This document shows, in pieces, positions 15,855 through 20,776 of a stretch of DNA of 64,000 bases. The notes beneath the pieces are model-generated. The model searched no databases. It saw nothing but the letters and a program-made list of their open reading frames with translations, and was not told the origin of the DNA. Origin of the DNA: Hyphomicrobiales bacterium (GTDB lineage: Bacteria; Pseudomonadota; Alphaproteobacteria; Rhizobiales; Rhizobiaceae); NCBI GenBank assembly GCA_026400435.1, contig JAPLOZ010000011.1, forward strand, positions 1 to 64,000, written 5' to 3'. Numbering within the stretch: position 1 is the first letter of the stretch; each line of letters opens with the position of its first letter. The position numbers and the translations under genes were made by a program.

Positions 15855-17027
15855 TCAGAGCTTTCCGGCAATCGTGTTGTCGAGCAGCGCCAGCGCAGCC
15901 TTTCTGGTGAGCTTGACAGGGTTGCCCCCGGTGCTCGGATCGGCCACCGCCATGACGGCGATCTCCGCCTTGCGCCGGGCGTCCATCTTAAGCCCCTTGA
16001 CCAGGTCGGGCAGCGTGTGGGGAACCTTGAGGTCCTTCCTCAGCTTCAGGATCGCCTTCGCGAAACCGTCAAAGCCGCCCTTGATTCCGAGATAGGCGGC
16101 GGCGCGCGCGATGCGCTCCTCGATCGCCGGGCGGTTGAAGGCGAGCACATAGGGCATGAAGACGCCGTTGGTCATGCCGTGATGGGTGTCGTAGAGCGCA
16201 CCGATCGGGTGCGACAGCGAGTGGATCGCGCCTAGTCCCTTCTGGAAGGCGGCGGCGCCCATGGCTGCGGCGGCCATCATGTTGGCGCGCGCGGTGACAT
16301 CTTTTCCATTCGCCGCCGCCTTGGGCAGGTTTTCGAAAACGAGGCGCATCCCTTCAAGGGCGATGCCGTCCGCCATCGGGTGGAAGCCGGGCGCCGAGTA
16401 GGCTTCGAGGCAATGGGCAAGCGCGTCCATGCCGGTGCCGACCGTGATGAAGGACGGCATGCCGACGGTCAGTTCCGGATCGGCGATCACGATTGCCGGC
16501 AGGAGTTTTGGATGGAAAATGATCTTCTTGGTGTGCGTGGCTTCGTTTGTCAGCACGCCGGCGCGGCCGACCTCCGAGCCGGTGCCCGCGGTGGTTGGCA
16601 CCGCCACGATCGGCGCGATGGCGTCGGAATTCGCGCGGGTCCACCAGTCGCCGATATCCTCGAAATCCCAGACCGGCCTTGTCTGGCCAGCCTGGAAGGC
16701 GACCAGCTTGCCGAGGTCGAGCCCCGAACCGCCGCCGAACGCGATAACGCCGTCATGTTTCCCCTTCTTGAACGCGGCAACGCCGGCGTCGAGATTGGAG
16801 CCGACCGGGTTCGCCTTGACGTCCGAGAAGACGGCGTAGGGTATCTTGGCGTCGTCGAGGATCTTCAGCGTCGATGCGACGACCGGCAGCTTGGCCAGCC
16901 CCGGATCGGTGACGAAGAGCGGGCGCTTGATGCCGGCAAAAGCCAGCGCGTCGGGCAATTCCTTGATGCGGCCCGCGCCGAAGCGAACTGTGGTCGGGTA
17001 GTTCCATTTGGAAATCAGCTTGGTCAT
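15855..17027 (-). CDS. Iron-containing alcohol dehydrogenase
   Basis: GGGSGLDLGK, VPTTAGTGSEVGRAGVLTN, HCLEAYSAPGFHPMADGIAL, GAIHSLSHPIGALYDTHHG metal-binding motifs. Confidence 0.95.
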   Translation of the reverse strand: MTKLISKWNYPTTVRFGAGRIKELPDALAFAGIKRPLFVTDPGLAKLPVVASTLKILDDAKIPYAVFSDVKANPVGSNLDAGVAAFKKGKHDGVIAFGGGSGLDLGKLVAFQAGQTRPVWDFEDIGDWWTRANSDAIAPIVAVPTTAGTGSEVGRAGVLTNEATHTKKIIFHPKLLPAIVIADPELTVGMPSFITVGTGMDALAHCLEAYSAPGFHPMADGIALEGMRLVFENLPKAAANGKDVTARANMMAAAAMGAAAFQKGLGAIHSLSHPIGALYDTHHGMTNGVFMPYVLAFNRPAIEERIARAAAYLGIKGGFDGFAKAILKLRKDLKVPHTLPDLVKGLKMDARRKAEIAVMAVADPSTGGNPVKLTRKAALALLDNTIAGKL

Positions 17028-17056: not shown

Positions 17057-18445
17057 TCAGATCTTTTCGCGCAGATGGTAGCTCTTTGGCCGGGTCAAAT
17101 TGTCGTAGCCGATCTCCGACAGGCCGGCGCCCTTGCCGGTGTCCTTGACACCGGTCCAGACCAGTGCGGGGTCGAGATAGTCGCAGCGGTTCATGAACAC
17201 GGTGCCGGTCTCGACGCGGTCGCCGATGGCAATCGCGTGCTCCGTGTCGGAGGTCCAGATCGAGGCGGTCAGCCCGTAGGGGCTGTCGTTCATCAGCGCG
17301 ATCGCCTCCTCGTCGTTCCTCACCTTCATGATGCCGACGATCGGCCCGAAGCTTTCCTCGCGCATGACCGACATCTGGTGGTTGACTCCGGTCAGCACTT
17401 CCGGCGCGAGGTACGGCGAGCCGGCAATATCGTTAGCCAGCTTCATGTTGACGTGCGATGTCGCGCCCTTGCGCAGCGCCTCGGCATTCTGCTCGCGGAT
17501 CAGATCGGCGAAGCGCGCCTGGGCCATCGGCCCCATGGTGGTCGCCTGTTCGAGCGGATTGCCGACGACATAGTTCCTGGTCTCGGCGACGAACCCCTCG
17601 ACGAATTCGTCATAGACCTTCTCGTGGACATAGACGCGCTCGATGCCGCAGCAGCACTGGCCGGAATTATAGAAGGCACCGTCGACGAGATTGGCGACCG
17701 CGAAATCGAGCTTTGCGTCGGGCAGCACGTAGGCCGGGTCCTTGCCGCCAAGTTCGAGCCCGAGCGTCATGAAGGTGCCCGCCGCCGCCTTCTCGATGGC
17801 GCGGCCGCCGGCGACCGAGCCGGTGAAGTTGACGTGGTCGATCTTGCCCGAGCCGAGCAGTCGTTCAGTCTGGACGTGGTTCAGCACGATGTTCTGGAAG
17901 ATGCCCTTGGGCAGTCCTGCCTTCTCGAACGCCTGCGCGAAACGCTCGCCGACGAGCAGCGTCTGGGCGGCGTGCTTGAGGATCACGGCCGAGCCGGCCA
18001 TCAGTGCCGGCACGATGGTGTTGACGGCGGTAAGATAGGGATAGTTCCACGGCGCGATAACCATCACGACGCCGAGCGGCTCCTTCTTCACATAGCGACG
18101 GAAGCCCTCCTTCGGGTTGGAGGCGGGAACTGGAGCGAGCGCCTTCTCGGCGATCTCGACCATGTACTGCGTGCGTTCGCGCACGCCGCCGAACTCGCCG
18201 CCGTAGCGCACGGGACGTCCCATCTGCCAGGCGATCTCGGGCACGATCTCGTCGGTCATCGCGACCAGCGCCTCAAGCATTGCGAGCATGTATTTGCCGC
18301 GCGCGGCGATTGGCGTCTTGGCCCATTCGACCTGCGCCGCCTTCGCACGCTCGACGACTGCGTTGACTTGGGCGTCGGTCGCAACCGGCCGCTCGGCGTA
18401 GATCGAGCCGTCGACGGGAGATTTGAGTTTGATGGTTTCGCTCAT
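17057..18445 (-). CDS. NAD(P)-dependent aldehyde dehydrogenase
   Basis: APWNYPYL, LELGGKDPAYVLPDA, FYNSGQCCCGIERVYVHE catalytic Cys motif. Confidence 0.95.
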   Translation of the reverse strand: MSETIKLKSPVDGSIYAERPVATDAQVNAVVERAKAAQVEWAKTPIAARGKYMLAMLEALVAMTDEIVPEIAWQMGRPVRYGGEFGGVRERTQYMVEIAEKALAPVPASNPKEGFRRYVKKEPLGVVMVIAPWNYPYLTAVNTIVPALMAGSAVILKHAAQTLLVGERFAQAFEKAGLPKGIFQNIVLNHVQTERLLGSGKIDHVNFTGSVAGGRAIEKAAAGTFMTLGLELGGKDPAYVLPDAKLDFAVANLVDGAFYNSGQCCCGIERVYVHEKVYDEFVEGFVAETRNYVVGNPLEQATTMGPMAQARFADLIREQNAEALRKGATSHVNMKLANDIAGSPYLAPEVLTGVNHQMSVMREESFGPIVGIMKVRNDEEAIALMNDSPYGLTASIWTSDTEHAIAIGDRVETGTVFMNRCDYLDPALVWTGVKDTGKGAGLSEIGYDNLTRPKSYHLREKI

Positions 18446-18460
18446 GAAAACTCCATAAGA

Positions 18461-18877
18461 TCAGCAGGCAAGTGCGCTGACATGGCCCTGCTTGGCATAT
18501 TCGAGGATCGCACGGTCGCGGGTCATGAGAGTCAGGTCATGGGCGCGCGCCGTGGCGACCAATATCCGATCTGCGGGATCGCGATGCAGATTTCCTGGCA
18601 GAAAAGAAGACTCAATTAGCACTTCCGGAGACAGGGGCTCAATCCTGACCCCCGTGGCGGCAACCACTTCGCCAAATAGCGCAAGGGGCGTCCTAGTGGC
18701 TGGCAGCCGGTCCTTGCAACTCAATAAACCGAGTTCCCAAGCCGAGATTGGGGACACTCGGATTTTTTCGTCCGCGGCGAAGGCGGCTTTCATCGCTGCC
18801 CTCGCTTCCGGCTTTATCACTTCGTCCATTGCGATCCAGATGATCGCGCAAGTGTCGAGCAGCAGCCTTTTCGTCAC
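18461..18877 (-). CDS. vapC: PIN-domain ribonuclease toxin, VapC family
   Basis: LLLDTCAIIWIAMDE; ISAWELGLL; LHRDPADRILVATARAHDLTLMTRDRAIL acidic PIN motifs; 4-bp overlap with upstream gene. Confidence 0.92.
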   Translation of the reverse strand: MTKRLLLDTCAIIWIAMDEVIKPEARAAMKAAFAADEKIRVSPISAWELGLLSCKDRLPATRTPLALFGEVVAATGVRIEPLSPEVLIESSFLPGNLHRDPADRILVATARAHDLTLMTRDRAILEYAKQGHVSALAC

Positions 18878-19359
18878 GGCGTCTTGTCCGGTTCGAAAGC
18901 TGGCTGGGTGTAATCATAGTCGGCGACAAGAGTGACCCTGCCCTTCCATATCCCAAAGAGAGGATGATCAGGTTTTTGCGATCGTTCTCCCGCATTGCTG
19001 CCTTCATAGGGTGCCTGCGTTGCTTCTGCGAGGCCTGATGTATCATGGCCAGCCAGTGTCCGAATGTTCACGCGGGAATAACCTTCCGGCCAGCCCTCCA
19101 AGCTGAAATCCACCTTCTTGTCAGCCAGATCGACATTTGAAGTACGGTAACTCGCGCGCATCCAAGCGCGTGCCTGGCTGTGGCCGCTTGGGCTGTTGCT
19201 CCACCATTCCTCGCGTTTTCGGGCCGACGGTGGGAGGGGCGCCCCAACTATCGCTTCGATTTCGGCAAAGGACAGGGTGAGTCGTCCCTGCCCGGAGAAA
19301 AGCAGGTACTCAAACAGTGGGTGATACTTCGTTCCTTCAGTCATGCTGAAACGTACCAT
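18874..19359 (-). CDS. Putative atypical antitoxin (DUF7662-like N-terminus, VapB/Phd-like C-terminal tail)
   Basis: YHPLFEYLLFSGQGRLTLSFAEIEAIVGAPLPPSARKREEWWSN...HSQARAWM plus C-terminal HPLFGIWKGRVTLVADYDYTQPAF; overlaps vapC by 4 nt. Confidence 0.7.
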   Translation of the reverse strand: MVRFSMTEGTKYHPLFEYLLFSGQGRLTLSFAEIEAIVGAPLPPSARKREEWWSNSPSGHSQARAWMRASYRTSNVDLADKKVDFSLEGWPEGYSRVNIRTLAGHDTSGLAEATQAPYEGSNAGERSQKPDHPLFGIWKGRVTLVADYDYTQPAFEPDKTP

Positions 19360-19378
19360 CAGTTCGCCGGTATACCAA

Positions 19379-19391
19379 TAGTATCTTACTA
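19379..19391. promoter_or_regulatory. Candidate operator: inverted repeat TAGTA-TCT-TACTA upstream of the TA pair
   Basis: Perfect 5-3-5 inverted repeat, 20 bp upstream of the antitoxin start; adjacent GGTATACC palindrome 19369-19376. Confidence 0.5.
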
Positions 19392-19399
19392 CCTATGGC

Positions 19400-20776
19400 T
19401 CAATACCTCTCAAACCCTCTGTGCAGTTCCCAGTCGGTGATGCGACGGTCGTATTCGAACTGCTCCCACTCGGCGGTGTTGACGTAGTGGTCGACCACAT
19501 CGTCGCCGAGGGCGGCGCGCAGCATCTTCGATTTCGCCAGGCTTTCGGTCGCGGCGCGCAGCGTCTTGGGGATTTCCGGCGTGCGGCTTGCCTTATATGC
19601 GTCGCCCTCAAAAGGCTTCTGCAACTCCAGCTTCTCATCGAGGCCTGCGAGCCCGGCGGCGATGAGCGCCGCGAAGGCAAGGTAGGGGTTGAGGTCGGCG
19701 CCGCCGATGCGGCACTCCATGCGCACGCCCTTGGTGCCTTCGCCGCAGAGCCGGAAGCCCGCCGTACGGTTGTCGCGACTCCAGATGATGCGGGTCGGCG
19801 CCCAGGTAGCGACCTGGAAGCGCTTGTATGAATTGACGAAGGGCGCGAGGAACCAGGTGTATTCACGCGCATATTTGATCTGGCCCGCGGCCCAGCTCTG
19901 GCCGATCTTCGACAGGCCCCATGGCCCCTTCTTGTCGAGGAACAGCGGCGTCTTCTTATCGGCGCTCCACAGCGAGTTGTGGATGTGGCTGGAATTGCCG
20001 GCGAGGCCGTAATTGTACTTCGCCATGAAGGTGATCGCCTTGCCCATCTGGCCGGCGATCTCCTTGGCGCCATTCTTCAGGATGACGTGGCGGTCGGCCA
20101 TGTCGACGGCCTCGGCGTAGCGGACGTTGATCTCTTCCTGTCCCGGGCCCGCTTCCCCCTTGGAGTTCTCGATCGGAATTCCCGCCGCCTCCATCTCGTT
20201 GCGCAGGCGGCGCATCACGTCCTCTTCCTTGGTGGTGATGCCGATCAGGTAGTCGCCGATGTATGGTGATGCGGTCGACAGGCCCTGCCAGTGTTTTCCA
20301 CGCGCAGAATCATAGGTTTCGTTGAACAGGTAGAACTCGAGCTCGGAAGCGAAGTAGCCGACATAGCCGCGCTCCTTCAGCCGCGCGACCTGGCGCTTCA
20401 GGATGGCGCGCGGCGAATGCGGCAGGTCGTCATGCGTGTGATGATCCTGCAGGTCGCACAGAACCAGCGCTGTCTTTTCCAGCCACGGAACATTGCGGAT
20501 GGTCGCGAGGTCGGGCTTCATGACGAAGTCGCCATAGCCTTGCTCCCAGCTCGCCGCCTTGTAGCCCGGCACCGGCTCCATATCGATGTCGTTGGCCAGC
20601 AGATAGTTGCAGCCATGCGTCTCGTCGTAACCGCTCTCGACGAAGAACTTCGCCAGGAAACGTTTGCCGACCAGGCGGCCCTGCATGTCGACGGCGCACG
20701 CCAGCACCGTATCGATACCGCCTTCCGCAACTGCCTTCTTCAACTGATCGAATGTGAGGTTGCCGGCCATTCGCAA
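19400..20776 (-). CDS. Glutamine synthetase family protein (PuuA/GlnT-like gamma-glutamylation enzyme)
   Basis: GYFASELEFYLFNETYD; GEAGPGQEEINVRYAEAVDMADRHVILKNGAKEIA; NSSHIHNSLW; class distinct from housekeeping GlnA. Confidence 0.9.
   Translation of the reverse strand: MRMAGNLTFDQLKKAVAEGGIDTVLACAVDMQGRLVGKRFLAKFFVESGYDETHGCNYLLANDIDMEPVPGYKAASWEQGYGDFVMKPDLATIRNVPWLEKTALVLCDLQDHHTHDDLPHSPRAILKRQVARLKERGYVGYFASELEFYLFNETYDSARGKHWQGLSTASPYIGDYLIGITTKEEDVMRRLRNEMEAAGIPIENSKGEAGPGQEEINVRYAEAVDMADRHVILKNGAKEIAGQMGKAITFMAKYNYGLAGNSSHIHNSLWSADKKTPLFLDKKGPWGLSKIGQSWAAGQIKYAREYTWFLAPFVNSYKRFQVATWAPTRIIWSRDNRTAGFRLCGEGTKGVRMECRIGGADLNPYLAFAALIAAGLAGLDEKLELQKPFEGDAYKASRTPEIPKTLRAATESLAKSKMLRAALGDDVVDHYVNTAEWEQFEYDRRITDWELHRGFERY

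Follow-up and report, generated by a model that had tools for sequence, protein, structure and literature searches.

The window analyzed here, a 64,000-nt stretch of contig JAPLOZ010000011.1 (assembly GCA_026400435.1) from a Hyphomicrobiales bacterium, raises the question of whether a gene that overlaps a vapC toxin gene, and whose product carries the DUF7662 domain, encodes the cognate antitoxin, and what DUF7662 does in it. On the minus strand, a glutamine-synthetase-like (GS-like) gene is followed by a 161-aa open reading frame (ORF), a 138-aa ORF and an aldehyde dehydrogenase (ALDH) gene, and the two ORFs share the four nucleotides GTGA. The overlap and the position of the pair between the GS-like and ALDH genes on one strand, both given in a preliminary description of this DNA, are thus borne out by the gene coordinates (Table 1). 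The analysis below makes it highly probable that the pair is a two-gene type II toxin-antitoxin (TA) module, with VapC as the toxin, the DUF7662-tail protein as the antitoxin and DUF7662 as its autoregulatory DNA-binding half.

The 138-aa protein matched the PIN family PF01850 of Pfam (E = 3.4e-12), and its acidic residues D8, E48, D100, D103 and D121 are intact. Across the alignment, the first four were invariant (105/105 rows) and D121 was present in 104 of the 105, suggesting that nuclease activity is probably selected. The VapC half also matched the VapBC structures 9h6a, 3zvk and 3tnd (E about 4e-5 to 1e-4), with which it has the VapC fold in common, whereas their antitoxins belong to other families, of the AbrB type. 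Sequence searches of the PDB returned no match for either window protein, and PHROGs gave weak VapC matches (E 0.06-0.08). The last residue of the toxin is Cys138 (window 18464-18466), and a terminal Cys was seen in 102 of 103 rows with the Phd outgroup left out; its reason might be structural, redox or aldehyde-reactive.

The partner protein had been described as a DUF7662-like module with an antitoxin-like tail, and both parts were recovered. Its DUF7662 match (PF24698) scored 56.2 bits against a curated cut-off of 26 and was the sole one, with no ribbon-helix-helix (RHH), AbrB or Phd domain in Pfam (to E = 1) or NCBIfam; scans of the pair with NCBIfam and PADLOC yielded nothing of weight, PADLOC giving no hit. 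The C-terminal tail, with the consensus HPxFGxLKGTVTIxxGxDLTxPAxPxW across homologues, is homologous by hidden Markov model (HMM) to the tails of Phd and helix-turn-helix (HTH) antitoxins. Translation probably starts at ATG 19344 (MTEGTKYHPL), because this is the sole pre-domain start in a 66%-identical relative (L002). A genome search found one antitoxin of the DUF7662-plus-tail kind in the source genome.

Does this partnership hold beyond the window? Of 398 genomes searched within the order, 58 had relatives, and vapC lay directly downstream in 26 of the 30 loci fetched. Because this search favours full-length matches, a second survey was run with the Pfam model PF24698 alone in 399 genomes of the phylum. 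The results showed that tailed DUF7662 proteins adjoined vapC in all eight cases (window included), in contrast to none of the 18 tail-less ones, a split with a chance of about 1 in 1.6 million if independence is assumed. In a third search, which selected for full-length likeness, vapC adjoined 80/80 tailed homologues with gaps all within -30 to +30 nt; these loci came mostly from Alphaproteobacteria, plus some Gammaproteobacteria, Nitrospinota and Acidobacteria bins. The pair was found in about a hundred related genomes, with the antitoxin gene first and a short gap or overlap across loci, and the distances of the two proteins were correlated (Mantel r = 0.57, p = 0.001). Homologues of the upstream protein thus strongly co-occur with vapC, and this adjacency and covariation support the antitoxin assignment of the preliminary description.

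Two kinds of unusual homologue were also observed. Divergent DUF7662 proteins without the WWSN motif are nevertheless followed by the tail and VapC in L159 and L161, the latter in the GS slot, which suggests a decaying or re-specialised version of the predicted DNA-binding module. Separately, L011 (1141-2076, minus strand) and the similar L027 encode DUF7662 proteins of 312-336 aa with no vapC nearby, and L011 shows a weak FitA-like RHH match (E = 0.01).

A VapC-profile search of genomes further revealed the same tail and toxin behind other N-termini. In the ORF set, the tail HMM matched HTH, Phd-like and PSK_trans_fac-like antitoxins (E 1e-8 to 1e-9). The same tail and VapC clade follow an XRE-HTH N-terminus in L156 (HTH_3, E = 1.3e-6) and a Phd-like one, with a Pfam score under the cut-off, in L171 and L173, while L192 joins a PSK_trans_fac-like segment (also under the cut-off) to the tail and a more distant VapC. 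Other more distant VapCs pair with clear Phd antitoxins (L163, E = 3e-9), and the source genome's second VapC (G000:C66, L196) has a Phd partner slightly under the cut-off (E = 7.8e-7). The L156 VapC is nested among DUF7662-partnered VapCs of Mesorhizobium (Shimodaira-Hasegawa-like approximate likelihood-ratio test 96%), and its locus occupies the same GS/ALDH slot, which indicates an in-place exchange of the predicted DNA-binding half. That XRE-HTH or Phd-like domains can stand where the N-terminal module does, with tail and toxin constant, supports a DNA-binding role for this module and a toxin-binding role for the tail. Overall, these sequence comparisons support a modular tail, with DUF7662 filling the DNA-binding slot of a VapBC-like type II module.

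The structure predicted for DUF7662 is consistent with such a role. An AlphaFold2 (AF2) model built from 81 sequences, with a predicted local distance difference test (pLDDT) mostly above 90 in the core, has the order a-b-a-a-b-b (helix 13-22, strand 26-30, helix 31-38, short helices, helix 61-68, strands 71-77 and 82-87), which reads as a predicted winged-helix topology, and the weak Foldseek list was rich in winged helices (Stn1, AbfR-DNA, OhrR and CodY). The domain ranges over Pseudomonadota, Deinococcota, Bacillota, Cyanobacteria and Archaea; it is fused to HNH_2 in Caballeronia and lies inside a gene annotated GIY-YIG in Haloplanus. Across L308, L309, Anabaena sp. 90 (NC_019428) and Streptococcus suis prophages (H23-H26), it was seen with HNH, within GIY-YIG- and DUF4268-annotated genes and within the S. 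suis prophages (one annotated RloF); these contexts with nucleases and in prophages hint at roles in defence or mobile DNA.

Candidate operators were found upstream of the module. ATAG[GT]TA occurred upstream of 32 of 74 dereplicated antitoxin genes. The same loci supplied 301 low-GC control windows, of which 2 had the motif (p = 1.7e-23), and it was present in 6 of 2288 when all controls were counted. Furthermore, the motif of the predicted recognition helix tracked the candidate operator class: ATAGKTA accompanied NSxIT in 18 of 22 cases and N[NS]xMT in 6 of 32, and HSH went with a third class in 5 of 5.

A reading of the enriched upstream words GACTGGGA and GGGTTCGA as tRNA ends was rejected, since they derive from the GS gene's 3' end (TDWELHRGFERY), and this tracing led to a conserved synteny. 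In 37 loci the module is preceded at 50-102 nt by the GS-like gene; ALDH follows downstream in 33, and then an iron-containing alcohol dehydrogenase (Fe-ADH) gene. These loci span Mesorhizobium, Hoeflea, Devosia, Bosea and Pannonibacter to Rhodobacteraceae. Among 80 orthologous GS genes of the taxonomic order, the gene directly after GS is ALDH or Fe-ADH in 65, the TA module comes next in 10 and neither does in 5; the nearest empty sites (G209, G069 and G248) have a GS identity of 83-85%. Decayed tail pieces without vapC in the GS-ALDH gap of G224 (L263) and G211 (L246), namely LFGLLKGKITIAPGIDLTEPV and HPLFGAMKG-stop, point to losses of the module. The VapCs of this context are clustered without forming a single clade (13 changes vs 28.8 when shuffled), and GS and VapC covary weakly (r = 0.28), which together suggest an old presence with losses and some transfer. 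In a second niche of 10 loci, gatB lies downstream (L093, L102, L104, L114, L077, L098, L015, L003, L006 and L090); in L093 and some others of these an amidase/gatA gene lies upstream, placing the module inside a tRNA amidotransferase operon, and an amidase gene is also upstream in L091 and L125. The third niche, upstream of an AFG1/ZapE-type ATPase gene, comprises 8 loci (L013, L017, L018, L022, L023, L115, L121 and L130). The module is thus an accessory element that recurs at the same few junctions within core operons. A mobile origin was rejected, as coverage of the antitoxin reached 80% in no plasmid or phage record. The enzymes of the window's host operon matched no NCBIfam equivalog cut-off; a plausible role would be to gamma-glutamylate and oxidise an amino alcohol.

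From these data we propose that VapC would act as a PIN RNase toxin, and that the C-terminal tail would wrap around and block it. The N-terminal DUF7662, as a predicted winged helix, would recognise ATAGKTA/TAGTA-type dyad operators that lie just upstream, and the antitoxin would thereby repress its own transcription, probably more tightly in complex with VapC. DUF7662 would replace the Phd or HTH domains of sister systems having the same tail and toxin. The module itself is an accessory of a catabolic operon, sitting where the GS-like gene meets the ALDH/Fe-ADH genes.

Several points weigh against this proposal. Toxicity, neutralisation, DNA binding and autoregulation are inferred from comparison and prediction. 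The winged-helix assignment is a reading of topology, and Foldseek gave no significant match to DUF7662 (best E = 0.63). An AF2 model of the in-frame pair of L064, read through with TGA as Q, served as a stand-in for AF-Multimer and had confident domains (predicted template modelling score 0.56); it has no interface read-out and was not used for binding. The inverted repeat of the preliminary description does exist upstream of the window's antitoxin gene, but alone it is no better than chance, as 70% of shuffles do at least as well; more weight comes from the better copy in the closest relative (GATAGTA-ATA-TACTATC) and from the family-wide enrichment of the half-site class. Operator class varies by subgroup, other subgroups having dyads that resemble ACACACTGTGT or ACATATGTTAAC, and the helix-operator association (permutation p = 5e-4) is uncorrected for kinship. 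Alternatively, the tail might neutralise VapC while DUF7662 serves in dimerisation, RNA binding or sensing, the upstream motif being read by another regulator or forming part of a promoter: DUF7662 has no solved homologue and no significant fold match, and many half-sites lie close to -35/-10-like sequence. We consider this unlikely, given the position-for-position exchange of DUF7662 with XRE-HTH and Phd-like domains, its fusion to HNH, and the fact that the sites are dyad-symmetric and go with the predicted recognition helix.

The recurrent placement at fixed junctions, with the upstream gene 50-100 nt before the module and the downstream gene close after it, would fit a complex that sets the expression of ALDH, gatB or AFG1, VapC being mainly a co-repressor or mRNA trimmer rather than an addiction or stress toxin. 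Yet most orthologous GS operons (65/80) have no module, decayed remnants occur, several unrelated host operons are involved, GS-VapC covariation is weak and the PIN acidic residues are invariant, so that such an operon regulator seems quite improbable. That the two genes are chance or general operon neighbours is hardly credible at all: DUF7662 does occur without vapC, but the co-occurrence contradicts this idea, as do the strict link to the tail, the constant order and overlap, the covariation and the independent operon contexts.

How does this TA module compare with known systems? Phd/YefM-VapC pairs (PhdYeFM_antitox PF02604 plus PIN), including L196, have a toxin of the same broader PIN family, the antitoxin first and a G..KG/RG motif in the tail, whereas their antitoxins have a Phd N-terminal fold and about 80-90 aa, compared with DUF7662 and 120-170 aa here. 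The nearest studied analogue is the DUF433-type winged-helix VapB (PMC3834315): PIN-COG2442 (DUF433) systems such as Synechocystis vapBC10 likewise combine a winged-helix-type antitoxin with VapC, although the domain family differs. In the passages found of PMC2701414 (Makarova 2009), COG2442 is a predicted winged HTH, and the PIN partners named are RHH, AbrB, PHD, COG2442, COG2886, MerR, COG2880 and COG1753, without DUF7662. The NetFlax/Panacea antitoxins follow the same principle, in which the globular domains attached to a linear neutralising segment can be exchanged, with other domains and no DUF7662 in the main-text passages found (PMC10440598). The 2009 partner list and NetFlax had already established the exchangeable-domain principle. 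A literature search, with most subscription journals outside its reach, found no paper naming DUF7662 and no earlier description of the DUF7662-VapC pairing.

Table 1 Coordinates of the TA module and its neighbours in the window.
Feature	Position	Strand	Basis
Antitoxin gene, DUF7662 + tail, 161 aa	18874..19359	-	ORF + Pfam; likelier start ATG 19344, 156 aa
DUF7662 domain, residues 12-83, predicted winged-helix DNA-binding module	19111..19326	-	Pfam PF24698 E=3e-15; AF2 pLDDT >90
Predicted recognition helix, residues 61-68, within motif WWSNSPSGHSQARAWM	19156..19179	-	AF2 secondary structure; helix motif-operator class association
Putative toxin-binding C-terminal tail HPLFGIWKGRVTLVADYDYTQPAF, residues 132-155	18895..18966	-	Alignments; same tail after other N-termini
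VapC-type PIN toxin, 138 aa, GTG start overlapping antitoxin stop	18461..18877	-	Pfam PF01850; alignment
Inverted repeat TAGTA-AGA-TACTA, candidate operator	19379..19391	.	Sequence; half-site enrichment
ATAGGTA half-site overlapping inverted repeat	19390-19396		Sequence
GS-like gene, host-operon upstream member	19400..20776	-	Conserved neighbour
ALDH gene, host-operon downstream member	17057..18445	-	Conserved neighbour
Fe-ADH gene, next host-operon member	15855..17027	-	Conserved neighbour

The DUF7662-VapC complex, bound at the GS/ALDH junction or ahead of gatB or the AFG1 gene, might tie the release of toxin to the expression of the enzymes encoded downstream, a possibility that we regard as rather doubtful; if it is true, these TA systems would be built-in governors of nitrogen/amidation operons and not mobile addiction modules. 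The module gives the widespread orphan domain DUF7662 a likely, testable function, and it provides a natural swap of predicted DNA-binding domains ahead of a fixed tail and toxin, once in place at one locus. Contrary to the usual picture of TA systems as scattered on mobile DNA, this family is found repeatedly in the same junctions of core metabolic operons.
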